A stretch of 64,000 bases of DNA from Desulfobacterales bacterium (GTDB taxonomy: Bacteria > Desulfobacterota > Desulfobacteria > Desulfobacterales > JAHDSC01): the NCBI GenBank assembly GCA_018432925.1, contig JAHDSC010000018.1:1-64000 (forward strand), in the 5' to 3' direction. The position numbers and the translations under genes were made by a program. How positions within the stretch are numbered: position 1 is the first letter of the stretch; each line of letters begins with the position of its first letter. The notes beneath the pieces are model-generated. The model saw only the letters and a list, made by a program, of their open reading frames with translations, was not told the origin of the DNA and searched no databases. Below, piece after piece: positions 57,057 through 64,000 of the stretch.

Positions 57057-58094
57057 ATGAAACTTGGATTGATTGGTCTCCCCGGATCGGGCAAAACAAC
57101 CATATTTGAAGCATTAACCCAAAATGTTTTGGATTCGTTAAACAAGAAAGAAAACCGGGTAGGAACCATAAAAGTCCCAGACAAGCGACTGGACGTACTG
57201 AGCGGGATGTATCAACCGAAAAAAACCACAAATGCACAGGTAGAATATTTTCTGCCGGGTATGATGGATAAAAATAAAGATAAAACGAAAGATCCGACCG
57301 GATGGATCCAAATCCGAGAATGTGATGCCCTTATCCATGTTATCAGAAATTTTGGGATATACGGTTCTGAAAAACCCTCTCCCCGCAAAGACTTTCAGGA
57401 AATCGACATGGAACTGATTCTTGCGGACCTCATTGTTGTTGAAAAGCGCTTGGAACGCCTAAAACTGGACCGAAAAAGGGGGAAAAAAACCGATCAGGAG
57501 GAGTTTCCGATTCTCAAAGAATGTCTTGAAACCCTTGAAAATGAAATTCCTCTGCGAAAGAATAAAGAGCTGGCCGATTCTCATCTTTTGAGGGGTTATG
57601 CTTTTCTTTCCGCTAAACCAATGCTTGTCCTTTTTAACAACGATGATGAGAACAACAGCATACCGGATAATACGAACAGTTTAACATCTACGGAAAATTG
57701 CGGCATTATAAGGGGAAAACTCGAACATGAGCTTGCTCAGATGACAAGTGAAGATGCACAGGATTTCCTTAAAGAGTTTAACATCGCTTCATCCGCTAGA
57801 GACAGGGTTATTCATCAATCTTATAAAATTTTAGGTTTGATATCTTTTTTTACGGTTGGTCCAGATGAAGTGAAGGCATGGACTATAAAAAAGGGGACCA
57901 GCGCCGTTGATGCTGCAGGGGCGATTCATTCGGATATCAAAAAGGGTTTCATCTGTGCAGAGGTTCTATCTTATGAGGACTTGATGAATGCAGGCTCTTA
58001 CCAGGAGGCGAAGAAAAAAGGTACCGTCAGACTGGAAGGGAAAACCTACGATGTGCTGGATGGTGACATAATAAATTTTCGTTTTAACATTTGA
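57057..58094 (+). CDS. ychF: YchF/Obg-related GTPase/ATPase with TGS domain
   Basis: 345 residues. Walker A GLPGSGKTTIFEAL (about 6-19), the KVPDKRLDVLSGMYQPKKTTNAQV segment, a helical region, and a C-terminal TGS-like domain ending EGKTYDVLDGDIINFRFNI resemble YchF/Ola1. It is smaller than standard YchF (363) and lacks the usual NKxD/NxxE G4 motif: the equivalent LVLFNNDDEN is atypical. This family prefers ATP and is redox- and stress-linked in E. coli. Confidence in the exact subfamily is moderate. Confidence 0.82.
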   Translation: MKLGLIGLPGSGKTTIFEALTQNVLDSLNKKENRVGTIKVPDKRLDVLSGMYQPKKTTNAQVEYFLPGMMDKNKDKTKDPTGWIQIRECDALIHVIRNFGIYGSEKPSPRKDFQEIDMELILADLIVVEKRLERLKLDRKRGKKTDQEEFPILKECLETLENEIPLRKNKELADSHLLRGYAFLSAKPMLVLFNNDDENNSIPDNTNSLTSTENCGIIRGKLEHELAQMTSEDAQDFLKEFNIASSARDRVIHQSYKILGLISFFTVGPDEVKAWTIKKGTSAVDAAGAIHSDIKKGFICAEVLSYEDLMNAGSYQEAKKKGTVRLEGKTYDVLDGDIINFRFNI

Positions 58095-58120
58095 TAAGTC
58101 ACTTCAAGAAATGTGCATGG

Positions 58121-58147
58121 CTGCCATCCAGGGAGATGGCAGTTTTC
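58121..58147 (+). terminator. Rho-independent terminator after ychF
   Basis: CTGCCATC and GATGGCAG form an 8-bp stem around CAGGGA, followed by TTTTC. It lies 27 bases after the ychF stop. Confidence 0.8.
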
Positions 58148-58321
58148 ATTCCAAACGGCTTCTTATTTTCATGTAAACAATCCCTTGTCTTGCTGCAATT
58201 GCATGGAAGAATATAAGAATTGTTTTTTTATATTCAATTTGTGCCTATTCCTGTGATTTCGGTCACCTGGTATGAAACCACTTTGCAATACAGATCCTTT
58301 ATGAAAAGTATGAGGCGAGTA

Positions 58322-58341
58322 CCCCGCCTTTTAAGGCGGGG
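58322..58341. repeat. Second copy of the GC-rich palindrome
   Basis: CCCCGCCTTTTAAGGCGGGG is the exact reverse complement of the 20-base hairpin at 50351-50370. It stands in the gap between ychF and the convergent cyclic-nucleotide-binding gene. Only this hairpin, not the rest of the 121-bp element, is repeated. Confidence 0.85.
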
Positions 58342-58373
58342 ATAATTTATTCAGGGCGGGAGCGCTTTGACCT

Positions 58374-58922
58374 TCATGAGGTCGCGGTTTGATTGTAAGC
58401 GGAATATCCAACCGGTTTGCCACCCGTTTCCTTCAATAATCTTTTGGCGATTCGTTTCGATTGAATGAGTTCATCATTGGTTAAACGCAGCCGGGCAGAT
58501 ACATATTCGGCGAACATCCGATAGAGCAATAGCAAAAAGTTTGCCTTTTCATCTTCCGAGCCAAGTCGGTTTGTTGCCGAGGTATCAACCGCAAGGCATA
58601 CTATCTTTCCTTCTGCATAAACCGATGCAGATCTTCCCAAACCGTCAAGTATTCTCATTTCACCGAAAATCTCTCCTATTTTATCGAAAATGCCGATTTC
58701 AACCTTTTCTTTTTCCACCCGTATTTTACCGGATAAGAGAAAGAAAAGCCATGGATCCATATCTCCCTCTTTTATAATGAGTTCTCCATGTGAATATTCT
58801 CTTATCTTGCTGAGCCGAAGCAGTTGTCGAAGACTCTTTGTTTCGAAATTTTTCAATGGGGGAATCGATAAGAGCTTTTGAATGTTTTGAATGTTATCTT
58901 TAAGAAACTTGGATTCAATCAT
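58374..58922 (-). CDS. Cyclic-nucleotide-binding domain protein
   Basis: 182 residues. It is a single CNB domain (about 20-150): LSKIREYSHGELIIKEGDMD followed by PWLFFLLSGKIRVEKEKVEIGIFDKIGEIFGEMRILDGLGRSASVYAEGKIVCLAVD. The phosphate-binding cassette GEMRILDGLGRSASVYA carries the FGE...RSAS pattern. No helix-turn-helix follows; the C-terminal 40 residues are basic. It may be a stand-alone ligand sensor rather than a CRP-type transcription factor. It is next to the AAA+ and signalling genes. Confidence 0.88.
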   Translation of the reverse strand: MIESKFLKDNIQNIQKLLSIPPLKNFETKSLRQLLRLSKIREYSHGELIIKEGDMDPWLFFLLSGKIRVEKEKVEIGIFDKIGEIFGEMRILDGLGRSASVYAEGKIVCLAVDTSATNRLGSEDEKANFLLLLYRMFAEYVSARLRLTNDELIQSKRIAKRLLKETGGKPVGYSAYNQTATS

Positions 58923-59280
58923 GCTGACCTCTTATAAAGAAAAACATTTCCGTGTTTGGATATTCGATATTTCTGATCGTGCGGTTTCCCTTGGTGGAAC
59001 CGCAATTGATATTAAAATTGGAGGCCCGTTTCGTTTCGAAGGGCCTTATAAAAGCGTATGCTTGGAAACGTACAAAATTGGCCTTTACATTTTATATCGG
59101 GAAATACCGTAAAGAAGATAAGGATAAATTAACGCCGGAATCGGAAATTCTCGAGTTTTTATATCATGGATTCTTTCTTTTCGTTCGACATGAAAAACGC
59201 ATTGAAGGTTGGAACGGCTTTTCAGTTGCTCTTTATCTGGTTTGAAAGCCATTTTCATGGAATTGAAATATAATTTCGTT
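58923..59280. other. Intergenic region between CNB protein and AAA+ gene
   Basis: 358 bases without a supported gene. Plus-strand frames of 60-97 codons have no family resemblance, and nothing recognisable is seen on the minus strand. It could contain the promoter for the CNB gene. Confidence 0.4.
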
Positions 59281-60066
59281 TTAACTCACCATATTGAGGC
59301 TATGGGAGGTTTTTCGCGCGCTGGATAAAAGCTCTTCCACAATAATTGTCCAGTCACCCAGGGTCAAAAAACGTTGAACCACATCTCGGAGTTGGTCGAT
59401 GTTTTCCGGCCATTGATATCGCATCAGTTGCTGTATTACGTTGCTGTCCGGCTGTAATGGAAGACTGTTTTTAAATTGGAAAGCATATTTTTCCAGATAA
59501 TAATCAATCAATGTGGGGATTTCTTCAGTCCTGTTTCGAAGCGGTGGAATATAAATTTGCATGCCGTTTATCAGGTGGTAAAGTTTTTCATCGAATTTAC
59601 CTTCTTGCACGTCCGGCTCAAGAGCGTGGGTTGCGGTTGATAAAATCAAAGGACCGGTTGATTTCGAACGGTTTAATCCGGGCTGTAACAACTTGTCACG
59701 CCGAATCATTTGGAAAATTTCAGCCTGGATCGAAAGAGGAATGACATGGATCTTGTCAAAAAATAAAACGCACCCATTGGATATTTTGTGTTGCCGGCCT
59801 TGATTCGGCTCAGTACCGGAAAAGAATCCGCCTTCATTCCCGTAGAGTTTGCTGGAAAGCATCATTTTCGGTAAAATCTCACAATTGATTTTAACAAAAG
59901 GACCTTCCTGTCTCGAGGATTTGCGGTAAATATTTCTGGCGGCCAATTCTTTTCCGACGCCGTTTTCGCCGCAAATTAAAATATTTACTCCTGACTCGAC
60001 AGCTTGATTAATTTGATTTCTTATTCTTTCCATACTTGGGCCTGAACCGAGCAGGGTATCTTCCAT
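59281..60066 (-). CDS. Degenerate sigma-54-interaction AAA+ protein without helix-turn-helix
   Basis: 261 residues, with AGGGA 7 bases before ATG. The AAA+ core of NtrC-type activators is clear: Walker A GENGVGKE (33-40), FVKINCEILPKMMLSSKLYG, PPLRNRTEEIPTLIDYYL and WPENIDQLRDVV. Two key features are altered. The GAFTGA loop reads GFFSGT (80-85), and Walker B reads LFFDKI (101-106) with Lys in place of the catalytic Glu. The protein stops right after the AAA+ domain, without a receiver domain or Fis-type HTH. It therefore probably does not activate sigma-54 and may act as a partner or decoy. Confidence 0.85.
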   Translation of the reverse strand: MEDTLLGSGPSMERIRNQINQAVESGVNILICGENGVGKELAARNIYRKSSRQEGPFVKINCEILPKMMLSSKLYGNEGGFFSGTEPNQGRQHKISNGCVLFFDKIHVIPLSIQAEIFQMIRRDKLLQPGLNRSKSTGPLILSTATHALEPDVQEGKFDEKLYHLINGMQIYIPPLRNRTEEIPTLIDYYLEKYAFQFKNSLPLQPDSNVIQQLMRYQWPENIDQLRDVVQRFLTLGDWTIIVEELLSSARKTSHSLNMVS

Positions 60067-60164
60067 TATTCATTCCCTATGGGCTTAGATATCTTGAAGC
60101 CGCCTTTTTCGCTTCGGTTTCAATGACACGGAGGCGGAAAACACGCTCACTGTTCGGTTATAAT

Positions 60165-60386
60165 TCATATCGCCTGTTTTATTTTTTTCCTGCTCGTTTT
60201 TCCAGATAGCCCCAGACATAGAGAACGAAAGGCGCATTCCGATTGGTCGCAATAACCGGCAGCGGAACCAAAACAATCAAAATTTCCCTCTGAACGCTGA
60301 ATCTGACGGATCAGGTTCTCTTTTGTTTGCCCGAATGAATTAATTCCTCTGTTTTTGGCAAGCATTCGTACTTCCAGCATTTTCAT
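60165..60386 (-). CDS. SAP-domain protein with Cx7Cx4Cx5C motif
   Basis: 73 residues with AGAGGA 6 bases before ATG. The first half, MKMLEVRMLAKNRGINSFGQTKENLI, resembles a SAP domain, a DNA- or RNA-binding helix pair. The second half, QRSEGNFDCFGSAAGYCDQS followed by ECAFRSLC, has four Cys spaced Cx7Cx4Cx5C, suggesting a metal or Fe-S site. The same Cys module occurs in the protein at 62001-62258. Such small SAP-Cys proteins accompany two-component genes in some delta-type genomes. The function is unknown. Confidence 0.8.
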   Translation of the reverse strand: MKMLEVRMLAKNRGINSFGQTKENLIRQIQRSEGNFDCFGSAAGYCDQSECAFRSLCLGLSGKTSRKKIKQAI

Positions 60387-60522
60387 TGCCGTTCCTCTCT
60401 AAATTATTGGGTTAAAGGTTTTCAAAAACATAAATGATCCTGATCTTTCATCTTTCTCGAAAATTATTTTGGACAAAATTGGGCTTTCAAATAATTCTTA
60501 AATTCTACGCATTTTATATGCA

Positions 60523-60576
60523 TTGTCCATAGAGAAAGAACATTATTTTTCTGGGGATTTCCCCTGGGCATATAGG
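60523..60576 (-). promoter_or_regulatory. Upstream element A, shared with the second Cys-protein gene
   Basis: On the plus strand TTGTCCATAG (60523-60532) and TATAGG (60571-60576) bracket a central ATTTCCCCT (60557-60565). The same three blocks recur at 62359-62412 with the outer two exactly the same distance apart. The element is about 137 bases upstream of the SAP-Cys gene. It may be a promoter or operator; this is inferred. Confidence 0.55.
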
Positions 60577-60584
60577 AATTTGCC

Positions 60585-60890
60585 CTATTTTGCTTTCGAA
60601 TAAGGTGCTTCGATGTATATTTTGGTTCCTTCCTTTAATCGGGTTTGAATCCTGAAACACCCATTGAGCAGGCTGACCTTTTCCTCCATGCAGCAAAGTC
60701 CGATTCGTTTTTCACTGTTGGCTCTCTGTGAAACCTCGGCAAAATCAAAGCCCTTGCCATCATCTTCTGCCCGGAGAATAATGTTCGGAAAAGACGCGAC
60801 AAGTCGGATGGTCACCCGGTCCGCGTTAGCATGACTGTGGATGTTGTTCAGCGCTTCAAGGAAGATATCAAAGCCCCGGCCGATCGCTTT
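60585..60890 (-). pseudogene. Histidine kinase C-terminal fragment
   Basis: Following an in-frame TAA, the minus-strand frame reads GRGFDIFLEALNNIHSHANA (N-box), then DRVTIRLVASFPNIILRAED, DDGKGFD (G1-like) and RIGLCCMEEKVSLLNG, then FRIQTRLKEGTKIYIEAPY. That is a complete HATPase_c domain of the NarX/HisKA_3 class. The dimerisation/phospho-acceptor domain and sensor are missing, and no start codon of normal strength precedes it. It is likely a truncated kinase remnant. Confidence 0.8.
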
Positions 60891-61186
60891 TTATCCCGTT
60901 CTCCGTATTTTGCCAAACATCGGATCCCCCCACAAAGAGAAAAAAGTTTATCGAAGAGAAATATGGTGAAAAGTTTGAGAAACGGGTGCGTTATGAAAGG
61001 AGCTTTATAGTAAAATGAACCGATGATTTAAAAGAGCTTACGGGGATAAGGACAAATTTACTTTATTCAAAAAAAGGAAAACACGAGATTGATGTTGAAA
61101 ATTCTATTAAAACGTATAGGCGGTGTCGCACGATGAAAGGATTCGCATTCATAGCTGCAATGGTATGGATCGATCTGTTCATAGGA
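60891..61186. other. Gap between kinase fragment and STAS-like gene
   Basis: About 300 bases. The plus strand has an open segment KFIEEKYGEKFEKRVRYERS followed by FIVK and a stop (near 60950-61015), which looks protein-like but has no start and no assigned family. The remainder is AT-rich and not recognised. Confidence 0.35.
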
Positions 61187-61468
61187 CTAAATTTTTTCAG
61201 AGATGATCCGGGTTGCATTTTCGCCTGTAAACATTATTTTAATCGGAAGATTTTTTAGATCGCAAAGATTGCGCTGCAATACATCTCGCCCGAACGGAAT
61301 AATGTTGCTCAGGCAATTGGTATGAATAATGACCCTGTAAACATTGTCGCAACTTTTCTTTAAAACATTTAGTAATTCGCACGCCGAAGAGCCGTCGAAA
61401 TCTCCCATCAGTTTCAGGTGCAGATTGTCCTCATTTCGATGTACAAAGATTTTGAAATTAGATGCCAT
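61187..61468 (-). CDS. STAS-like small protein (anti-sigma antagonist type)
   Basis: 93 residues from ATG 61466-61468, with AGGAG 6 bases upstream. An earlier ATG would add six residues that include the ribosome binding site. FKIFVHRNEDNLHLKLMGDF, DGSSACELLNVLKKSC, VYRVIIHTNCLSNIIPFGRD and LPIKIMFTGENATRIISEKI follow the beta-alpha pattern of STAS domains, but the phosphorylatable DSSG Ser is not obvious (TNCLSNIIPFG). It may be a diverged regulator in the same transcript as the response regulator, 52 bases upstream. Confidence 0.6.
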   Translation of the reverse strand: MASNFKIFVHRNEDNLHLKLMGDFDGSSACELLNVLKKSCDNVYRVIIHTNCLSNIIPFGRDVLQRNLCDLKNLPIKIMFTGENATRIISEKI

Positions 61469-61519
61469 CACTTTCTCCTTTTTCATCGGAAAAAAATCAT
61501 CAGGTCAATTGTATATCCC

Positions 61520-61936
61520 TTAGGCACAATCTTTGATCAAATTGATTTTTCCCCATTCCTTCAAGACATTTCTTTTCAGCGATAGAACTTCGGATATCGT
61601 TTGTTTGAGCCTGTAAAGCGCATCAAAATGCTTGATGACGTATATAAGAACAGGGATTTCAGGCCTTCTTCGATTGATATCCAGCAGTACATCCCAACTC
61701 TCGGTTCCGTTCAGATAATGATCAAGAAGCAGCAGGTCCGGTTGCATATCTCGTAAATACTCCCACATGGCCTCCGCATTTCCCGCACGCTTAACCAAAT
61801 AACCATCTTGAGTCAATTCCACGGAGAGAAGGTCCGGGATATAAGGCTGATCATCCACAATCAAAATATCAATCCTTTTTTCATTCTGCTTAACCGCTAT
61901 TGATTCTTTTTTAGAAATACCCGGCATAAATATCAT
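61520..61936 (-). CDS. Response regulator receiver protein, apparently shortened
   Basis: 138 residues from ATG 61934-61936 (AGGAGG, 8 bases upstream). The receiver has the acidic pair DD at 28-29, phosphoacceptor Asp at 72 (LLLLDHYLN) and a late Lys in VIKHFDALYRL. Between PEIPVLIY and VIKHFD about 20 residues of a normal receiver (the Thr/Ser strand and following helix) are missing, so the fold is likely compromised. There is no output domain. It lies between the Cys protein and the STAS-like gene. Confidence 0.78.
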   Translation of the reverse strand: MIFMPGISKKESIAVKQNEKRIDILIVDDQPYIPDLLSVELTQDGYLVKRAGNAEAMWEYLRDMQPDLLLLDHYLNGTESWDVLLDINRRRPEIPVLIYVIKHFDALYRLKQTISEVLSLKRNVLKEWGKINLIKDCA

Positions 61937-62000
61937 GATCGTCACCTCCTGTAGATGAGGCCTGGCACACAGAAAACCCGCCTGTCCTTCTCATGCATGT

Positions 62001-62258
62001 CTATTTGTCAAAAGAATCAGCATATTGTATGCAGTAGGAGTACCACGCGCAATCCAACCGACTACAAAGGCCCCTGCTCTTGCCAAAGCAATCGAAGTTT
62101 CCCTCCGAACGCTGAACGCTTCGCACCAAAGCGGTGATATCCAGAAAATTTTTTCGATCCGTTTTACCGTCTTTATGGGTTGATAGTTGATCGTTTCCGC
62201 CATTTTCCTCAGGGTATTCGATTAATTTTTTGCTGAGAAAACCGGTCATATGTGCCAT
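62001..62258 (-). CDS. Small protein with Cx7Cx4Cx5C motif, paralogous to the SAP-Cys protein
   Basis: 85 residues, AAGGAA 7 bases before ATG. The C-terminal part, QRSEGNFDCFGKSRGLCSRL then DCAWYSYC, matches the SAP-Cys protein at 60165-60386 in the QRSEGNFDCFG block and in all four Cys spacings. The N-terminal 45 residues (MAHMTGFLSKKLIEYPEENG and on) are unrelated to SAP and hydrophilic. It is the first gene upstream of the response regulator. The function is unknown; a shared metal site or protein-binding role is plausible. Confidence 0.75.
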   Translation of the reverse strand: MAHMTGFLSKKLIEYPEENGGNDQLSTHKDGKTDRKNFLDITALVRSVQRSEGNFDCFGKSRGLCSRLDCAWYSYCIQYADSFDK

Positions 62259-62731
62259 TATGGGGTTCCTTTAAGGTTTCCAGGATAAGCAGAAATGTGT
62301 ATTGGCTTTTATGGAAAATTCCCAAAATTTTAATTCAGTATGATGATTTTATTTTGCTTTGTCCATAGGGGATGCGGTTCATTTTTATAGGAGCATTTCC
62401 CCTATTTATAGGGGTTTATCCTGAGAACCGATTTATCTTTTTCTAGTTAAAACCCCGGCTGACTATAGATTGTCCTGTTTTGGGTATGGAAATCGGACGG
62501 AATTTTGAGAAGCATTTTCCTTTACACCTTTTCTGATGGATCCCATCAGGGCTCATCCCAATGATTGATATAAGTTTTTTGTTTGAAAATTCTTAATAAA
62601 CAGGATAGCCTACCTTAATGGTTTCTTAAAAATTCGCCTCGTTTTACCGGTTTAAGGTCGAACCTGATTCAAACCGCATTGTGAAAATAACTGCAGAAAT
62701 AAAAGATGCTTTTTAAAAAACGGAACGCAAT
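62259..62731. other. Intergenic region before citrate synthase
   Basis: About 470 bases. It includes element B at 62359-62412. The rest, upstream of gltA, is AT-rich with no recognisable gene. Confidence 0.4.
62359..62412 (-). promoter_or_regulatory. Upstream element B, shared with element A
   Basis: TTGTCCATAG (62359-62368), ATTTCCCCT (62395-62403) and TATAGG (62407-62412) repeat the blocks of element A; the outer blocks have identical 48-base spacing. The right part forms a hairpin, CCCCTA/TAGGGG around a 4-base loop (62399-62414). It lies about 100 bases upstream of the Cys-protein gene. Confidence 0.55.
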
Positions 62732-64000
62732 ATGCCGGAACCTGTGAAAATTATTATTGAAGGAAAAACATATGAATTGCCTGTCATTGTTGGTTCTGAA
62801 GATGAAAAGGCAATTGATATCTCGAATCTCAGGAAGAAGACCGGATATATCACTCTCGATCCGGGATTCAACAACACGGGAAGCTGCATCAGTTCAATCA
62901 CCTTTTTGGATGGCGAGAACGGCATCCTTCGCTATCGCGGAGTGCCGATCGAGGAACTGGCAGAGAATTCAACCTTTGTGGAAACGGCCTATCTTTTAAT
63001 AAATGGAGAATTGCCAACCAAAAAACAACTGAACCGTTTTTCGGTTCTTCTTAACGACAATTCCCTTGTTCATGAAGATATGCAGATTTTTTATCAGAAT
63101 TTTCCGAGAGCATCTCATCCGATGGGGATTCTTTCGTCAATGGTAAATGCCTTGAAGAGCTTTTACCCGGAACTTCAGGAAAACGAAGAAGAGATCAATA
63201 TAACGGTTACAAGGCTTCTTTCCAAGGTTCGAACGATGGCTGCCTTGTCGTATAAAATATCCAGGGGCCATAAGGTTGTTTACCCTCGACCCGATCTGTC
63301 ATATGCTGCAAATTTTCTCAACATGATGTTTGATACCCCTGTCAGGCCTTATATGATCGATGAAGATATCGTTAAAGCGCTTAACGTCTTCTGGATTCTC
63401 CATGCCGATCATGAGCAGAATTGTTCTACATCGGCGGTGCGGCTTGTCGGAAGCGCACGGGTGAATCTGTATGCAGCAATATCCTCCGGAATTTGTGCGC
63501 TATGGGGTCCGCTGCACGGCGGTGCGAATCAGGCCGTTATCGAGATGCTTTCTGAAATTAAAGCGGATGGAAAAGATCTGGCACGTGTGATCGAAAAAGC
63601 CAAAGACAGGAAAAATCCATTCCGACTGATGGGTTTCGGACACAGCGTTTACAAAACATATGATCCCCGTGCCAAGATCCTGAAAAAGGAGTGCGACAAG
63701 ATTCTTTCGAAATCGTATATTGATGATCCGCTGCTGGACCTGGCAAAGCAGCTTGAAGTATTCGCACTGAAAGATGACTATTTTATCGAGCACAACCTTT
63801 ACCCGAACATTGATTTTTACAGCGGTATACTGCTTCGTGCCATCGGCATTCCAACCAATATGTTCAGCGTCATGTTCGCAATCGGCAGGATGCCGGGATG
63901 GATCGCTCAGTGGAGGGAAAGCATTCATGACCCACGCTGGAAACTCAATCGACCCCGCCAGATCTATATGGGGCTGCCGAAGAGGAAATACATTCCGATT
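62732..64000 (+). CDS. gltA: Citrate synthase (3' end cut by window edge)
   Basis: 423 residues visible from ATG 62732, without a stop before the edge; probably only a few residues are missing, as the end (RQIYMGLPKRKYIPI) is close to the usual C-terminus. Type II features are GSCISSITFLDGENGILRYR, WILHADHEQNCSTS, ALWGPLHGGANQA with catalytic His, FRLMGFGHSVYK with catalytic His, and NLYPNIDFYSG with catalytic Asp. It condenses oxaloacetate with acetyl-CoA. The gene is on the plus strand, divergent from the Cys-protein signalling genes. Confidence 0.96.
   Translation, partial: MPEPVKIIIEGKTYELPVIVGSEDEKAIDISNLRKKTGYITLDPGFNNTGSCISSITFLDGENGILRYRGVPIEELAENSTFVETAYLLINGELPTKKQLNRFSVLLNDNSLVHEDMQIFYQNFPRASHPMGILSSMVNALKSFYPELQENEEEINITVTRLLSKVRTMAALSYKISRGHKVVYPRPDLSYAANFLNMMFDTPVRPYMIDEDIVKALNVFWILHADHEQNCSTSAVRLVGSARVNLYAAISSGICALWGPLHGGANQAVIEMLSEIKADGKDLARVIEKAKDRKNPFRLMGFGHSVYKTYDPRAKILKKECDKILSKSYIDDPLLDLAKQLEVFALKDDYFIEHNLYPNIDFYSGILLRAIGIPTNMFSVMFAIGRMPGWIAQWRESIHDPRWKLNRPRQIYMGLPKRKYIPI

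Follow-up and report, generated by a model that had tools for sequence, protein, structure and literature searches.

The window analysed here is a stretch of 64,000 nucleotides from a Desulfobacterales bacterium of the sulfate-reducer type (contig JAHDSC010000018.1, positions 1 to 64,000, assembly GCA_018432925.1). Between positions 59281 and 62258 it holds a patch of small signalling-type genes, among them two, CysA and CysB, whose products share a module of four cysteines (Cys4). We consider it probable that this patch is a copy, detached and remodelled, of an accessory cassette that is conserved in a two-component system. Because relatives show CysA together with a kinase and a regulator, the patch is best understood as a real, conserved system from which the kinase has broken off and not as random decay.

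The neighbourhood of CysA-type (type A) genes carries this reading. Upstream sequence of 1.5 kb or more was available for 47 type A loci (50 less three SAP-type loci, the neighbours being labelled by profile). In 37 of these a kinase and a NarL-type regulator both lie directly before CysA; counted singly, the regulator occurs in 40 loci and the kinase in 38. Those of the linked kinases that were tested belong to the HisKA_3/HATPase_c type and mostly carry PAS domains, and the regulators combine a receiver with a GerE domain. When a separate second set of loci was drawn, a regulator was nearby in all 5 of the 5 type A loci with usable flanks and in 0 of the 20 random control stretches. From the upstream counts and the second set, CysA most likely stood ancestrally as the third gene of a two-component operon, behind a kinase and a NarL-type regulator. 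Downstream of CysA, 48 loci (SAP-type loci included) offer 1.5 kb or more of sequence, and stand-alone receivers were found in 23 of them and a STAS-like protein in 15. A sequence-only reading of the patch had proposed the Cys module as the common part of a signalling cassette, which holds in part; the ancestral place of CysA behind an intact kinase and NarL-type regulator had escaped it. One branch of the Cys4 family thereby gains a testable context, in which CysA is inherited together with a STAS-like partner and with receivers that are often unable to be phosphorylated. In about nine type A loci (L047, L050, L051, L052, L054, L055, L058, L060 and L062; L-numbers denote loci), a small Cys-rich protein of ~59-70 residues (MISSPCKNCPRKDLPKEDCAKNCKLL...) lies between the NarL-type regulator and CysA.

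In the window, the HisKA_3 kinase and NarL-type regulator pair is not adjacent to CysA, and a HATPase_c stub alone remains. The packing of six signalling-type features into 3 kb on one strand, described from the letters alone, was confirmed: all six open reading frames (ORFs) are present in the sequence and all lie on the minus strand. In order of transcription they are:

62258-62001, minus strand: CysA, type A, 85 residues; predicted disordered N-terminus, helix, Cys4 loop and helix, with C57-x7-C65-x4-C70-x5-C76
61936-61520, minus strand: stand-alone receiver; ~18 residues missing (conserved Thr and alpha-4 region), phospho-Asp and Lys kept
61468-61187, minus strand: STAS-like (anti-anti-sigma-type) protein; usual phospho-Ser motif absent, a longer ORF starting at 61486
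60872-60585, minus strand: histidine-kinase relic; HATPase_c only, without DHp/HisKA_3 or sensor part
60386-60165, minus strand: CysB, 73 residues; SAP/Rho_N-like helix-loop-helix followed by a Cys4 module as in CysA
60066-59281, minus strand: degenerate AAA+ domain and lid of a sigma-54 activator, without helix-turn-helix; found in this genome only

Domains were assigned with Pfam and NCBIfam, and the STAS-like protein by comparing a profile of 18 homologues with PDB. The receiver start was corrected from GTG 61945 in the earlier ORF to ATG 61936, upstream of which lies AGGAGGTGA; judging from the starts of homologues and visible Shine-Dalgarno sequences, the receiver probably starts at this ATG and the STAS-like gene at 61468. 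The citrate synthase gene next to the patch starts at 62732 on the opposite strand.

The Cys4 protein family

CysA and CysB do share QRSEGNFDCFG and an exact cysteine spacing, as had been noticed from the sequence, and both read C-x7-C-x4-C-x5-C. The sharing is not due to chance, because the 3.38-Mb genome has exactly two genes with the module, both in the patch and less than 2 kb apart, and because the module is kept in other genomes. It is present in 12 of the 40 genomes of relatives and in 122 of the 395 sampled genomes of the phylum, and also in Nitrospirae and Gammaproteobacteria; one pattern scan of a species-wide collection gave 149 confirmed places, of which 80 were kept. Random decay had been expected to leave no conservation, and HMM and motif searches together with inspection of the neighbourhoods in relatives found both the module and its surroundings recurring in other genomes.

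Type A proteins, roughly 50-130 residues long, have an unstructured N-terminus followed by DITxLIRSIQRxEGNxDCF and the Cys loop, and their species-named loci belong to Desulfobacterales and related 'Deltaproteobacteria'. In type B, represented by CysB, the N-terminal half is SAP/Rho_N-like, and this type extends to Nitrospirae, Gammaproteobacteria and others. None of the 25 type B proteins lacks any of the four cysteines, and 47 of the 48 type A proteins keep them all, a single residue deviating among the 73. Another architecture was seen in L203, L204, L210, L217 and L240, where the Cys module stands behind an N-terminal zinc-ribbon-like stretch (CIxCxxxWG...GLCxxC).

In the AlphaFold2 model of CysB (predicted local distance difference test, pLDDT, 80), two N-terminal helices in a SAP-like arrangement precede the Cys loop, which is followed by a C-terminal helix; the low-confidence model of CysA retains only the second N-terminal helix, the loop and the final helix. 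A Foldseek search of the CysB model against PDB gave nothing significant (E >= 2.8), the low-scoring matches being to the N-terminal region of Rho, the best of them, and to CDNF/MANF. The Rho_N profile matches 19 of the 25 type B members weakly (E up to 0.1, best 4e-5); the CysB of the window is not one of them, nor does it formally match Pfam SAP. The small nucleic-acid-binding SAP, Rho_N and HeH domains may be the nearest known counterparts of the N-terminal half of CysB, but CysB differs from them in continuing into a Cys4 module that lies outside the curated families, and CysA lacks the first helix.

Scans of the Pfam and NCBIfam libraries revealed no family covering the Cys module, and searches of the literature, by module or by motif, found nothing relevant; the helix-Cys4 proteins are a widespread family of small proteins, unnamed in the curated libraries and the literature searched. 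The only curated matches to the module itself were Pfam DUF7949, which was rejected since matches of equal score occur all over control genomes, and methanogenesis marker 9 (TIGR03277), which gives 14 bits, below its cut-off of 96.2. The latter is a weak lead that might point to a remote link. CysB (60165-60386) is the sole match of the marker 9 model in the whole genome (E 0.34, 12.6 bits). A mobile-element origin is unsupported, as no phage relatives of CysA were found and a single distant CysB relative lies on a Leptospirillum plasmid.

The cassette in the lineage of the window

Synteny was examined in the window's own genome (G000), a genome of the same family (G001) and one of the same order (G013). 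G001 has the order CysA, receiver, STAS-like protein, second receiver, CysB, debranching enzyme and glycogen phosphorylase, and G013 has CysA, STAS-like protein, CysB, debranching enzyme and phosphorylase. Both blocks adjoin the same citrate synthase gene as the window, and neither has an adjacent kinase-regulator pair. CysB lies in the CysA block in the window genome and in its two nearest relatives that carry CysB, and the two types share one locus also in L061, L068 and L082. Between citrate synthase and CysA, two relatives have a protein of 262-266 residues (L032:9186-9974 and L033:5391-6191) that is absent from the window; the L032 copy has no Pfam match.

Close homologues of the CysA-linked regulator are found elsewhere in these genomes: two in G000, two in G001 (C41 and C50) and one in G013 (C7), the last still beside its kinase. 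The two in G000 (C171:2959-3630 and C198:15041-15712) stand alone, with 71-73% identity to the regulator of L063 and no adjacent kinase. The CysA-type regulators have not been lost from the lineage of the window but lie at separate places, and the patch offers an example of how such a system can be split, its accessory block and regulators surviving apart from each other.

Receiver and STAS-like protein

The receiver matches Response_reg in Pfam (E 9e-12). It had been described as shortened, and so it is, although the loss of ~18 residues is internal and not at its end: of the active-site set DD, D, T and K, the T has gone with the internal segment and the others are present. The deletion is an old variant rather than local damage, because it is common to the window, C134 of the same genome, G001 and two G021 loci. 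Compared with the C134 copy, the receiver has nonsynonymous (dN) and synonymous (dS) divergences of ~0.2 and 0.5-0.6 (dN/dS ~0.3-0.4). The STAS-like gene, with dN ~0.06 against dS 0.5-0.8 (dN/dS ~0.1), is therefore under strong purifying selection, and the receiver is under weaker selection than this gene. The C134 copies form a second receiver and STAS-like pair (G000:C134:18441-19208; L009:4286-5220), 81-87% identical in DNA and without a Cys gene, whose receiver has lost the phospho-Asp.

Stand-alone receivers without phospho-Asp made up 12 of the 30 in type A loci, several of them from related genomes (a misassigned ORF and duplicates were left out), compared with 2.0% for receivers in general (PMC12632262). 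Type A loci in this respect resemble the pseudo-receivers treated there, as does the window type in having no conserved Thr. In contrast to these, the window receiver has both Asp and Lys and has lost a whole internal segment, a loss unmentioned in the part of that source available.

The window STAS-like protein alone has no Pfam match. Its profile has SpoIIAA as the best, weak match in PDB (E 0.008) and is in register with SpoIIAA and RsbS chains over ~70 residues, as would be the case for a relative of the STAS anti-sigma-factor antagonists (SpoIIAA, RsbV and RsbS). It differs from them in that IxPFG replaces the phosphorylatable D-S-S-G-L motif in most of the homologues, and in that no RsbW- or SpoIIAB-type anti-sigma kinase ORF is present in the patch. 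A third STAS-like paralogue with 36% identity and extra C-terminal Cys residues lies just outside the window (G000:C10:78179-78439; L277:1396-1764).

Kinase relic and degenerate AAA+ protein

The kinase fragment noticed earlier is just that: HATPase_c is matched at 60585-60815 (Pfam, E 0.0012), homology reaches back to 60872, and the stub is 58-60% identical to the C-terminal ~97 residues of CysA-linked HisKA_3 kinases. Remnants of the rest of the kinase or of a regulator were sought in 58000-62800 and the HATPase part alone was found; the stub looks decayed.

The AAA+ protein matches Sigma54_activat (2e-36) and AAA_lid_14 in Pfam and, across the AAA+ domain and lid, shares 39% identity with an intact activator encoded in its own genome. 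Against this paralogue GAFTGA is changed to GFFSGT, AATN to STAT, the Walker B DE to DK and FREDLYYRL to FDEKLYHLI, while Walker A (GENGVGKE) is kept; the ORF stops after the lid at 261 residues and the paralogue runs to 349. The losses take in GAFTGA, the Walker B Glu, the sensor Asn, the Arg fingers and the C-terminal helix-turn-helix; residues for catalysis and for sigma-54 contact are gone, and the earlier description of the module as crippled is right. Sigma-54 activation requires these features (PMC7175178), and despite its identity to the bacterial enhancer-binding proteins the window AAA+ protein differs from them in standing alone without them. No ortholog of the degenerate form was found among the relatives searched, nor beside these genes there. 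The protein looks decayed in its motifs; its frame is open and its coding score positive, and it may have a non-catalytic role.

Possible mechanism and alternative explanations

We suggest that CysA, the receiver and the STAS-like gene became separated from the kinase-regulator pair in the lineage of the window, and that the kinase stub and degenerate AAA+ domain may be debris or cast-off parts added in this genome. The four invariant cysteines would form one metal site, for zinc in preference to an iron-sulfur (Fe-S) cluster because CysB-type proteins occur also in lineages with aerobic members. CysA could serve as a small adaptor whose helix, Cys loop and helix would bind, now in trans, a partner in the kinase-regulator pathway, and CysB could be a Cys4 version fused to a nucleic-acid-binding SAP/Rho_N-like half. 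The receiver and the STAS-like protein would then be binding switches and not parts of a phosphorelay.

Several points weigh against this picture of a detached accessory cassette. Outside the lineage of the window CysB has no fixed neighbourhood, and many of the sampled loci are from related metagenome-assembled genomes, which makes the counts not fully independent. CysA and CysB score weakly as coding sequences, which is to be expected of genes so short, and the case for them as genes therefore stands on conservation. The CysA model is poor (pLDDT 61), and the window receiver keeps its phospho-Asp. Metal, partner and nucleic-acid binding are properties that we infer, and zinc rather than Fe-S is a guess.

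The two possibilities raised by the sequence-only reading, a decaying two-component locus and a repurposed signalling cassette, each describe a part of the patch: decay fits the kinase relic and the AAA+ protein, and a cassette fits CysA, the receiver, the STAS-like gene and CysB, a block that is kept in relatives and under selection. Were the whole patch the graveyard of a two-component operon with the other ORFs as chance survivors, a kinase down to its last ~97 residues, an AAA+ protein in which four motifs for catalysis or contact are broken and which has no ortholog next to these genes in relatives, and a C134 receiver copy without phospho-Asp would all be accounted for. This is unlikely, and already largely refuted by the purifying selection on the STAS-like gene and the synteny in two other genomes; the cysteines are moreover invariant in both Cys proteins, and the receiver deletion, common with G001 and G021, is old. 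An improbable alternative is that the Cys proteins serve glycogen or central carbon metabolism, as small regulators that act on glycogen synthesis or breakdown, with incidental signalling neighbours. In G001 and G013, CysB directly precedes the genes for glycogen debranching enzyme and phosphorylase. CysA has a debranching enzyme in its vicinity in L047, L049 and L052, and CBM48 and/or glycogen synthase genes in L093, L096 and L105, and 7 of the 75 type B loci have a glycogen synthase no more than 7 kb away, compared to 0 of 20 controls. However, the recurrent link is a minority feature in both types, glycogen genes are absent from the surroundings of most type A loci, and the debranching enzyme-phosphorylase-synthase cluster of G000 is on contig C34, without a Cys gene.

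We regard it as very unlikely that the Cys module is a redox or Fe-S sensor feeding the kinase, an input analogous to NreA, with the cassette feeding the C171 and C198 regulators in trans. The strict operon place after the kinase and NarL-type regulator, the C-x10-C-x2-C motif in the PAS domains of several CysA-linked kinases and the persistence of the regulators in trans would agree with such a sensor, but some lineages that have type B proteins include aerobes, and none of the cluster-binding families known in Pfam, NCBIfam or PDB fits the cysteine spacing. NreA is a nitrate receptor and a GAF protein. NreABC-type systems have the same kinase (HisKA_3) and regulator (NarL-type) families and a third small gene in the operon, whereas CysA is a Cys4 protein unrelated to NreA and the kinase-regulator pair of the window is detached.

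Beyond the detached cassette, we put forward tentatively, and with some doubt, that helix-Cys4-helix constitutes an adaptor domain, so far undescribed, that responds to metal or redox state and is spread across Desulfobacterota, Nitrospirae and Gammaproteobacteria, occurring as SAP-Cys, zinc-ribbon-Cys and Cys alone. In Desulfobacterota it would be the third component of a kinase and NarL-type regulator system with phosphorylation-independent receivers and STAS switches, perhaps tied to glycogen metabolism. SAP-Cys genes near glycogen synthase were seen in several phyla (L205, L213, L219, L108, L117, L121 and L123), and the 7 of 75 type B genes with a glycogen synthase within 7 kb belong to Gammaproteobacteria, Nitrospirae and Desulfobacterota among others.

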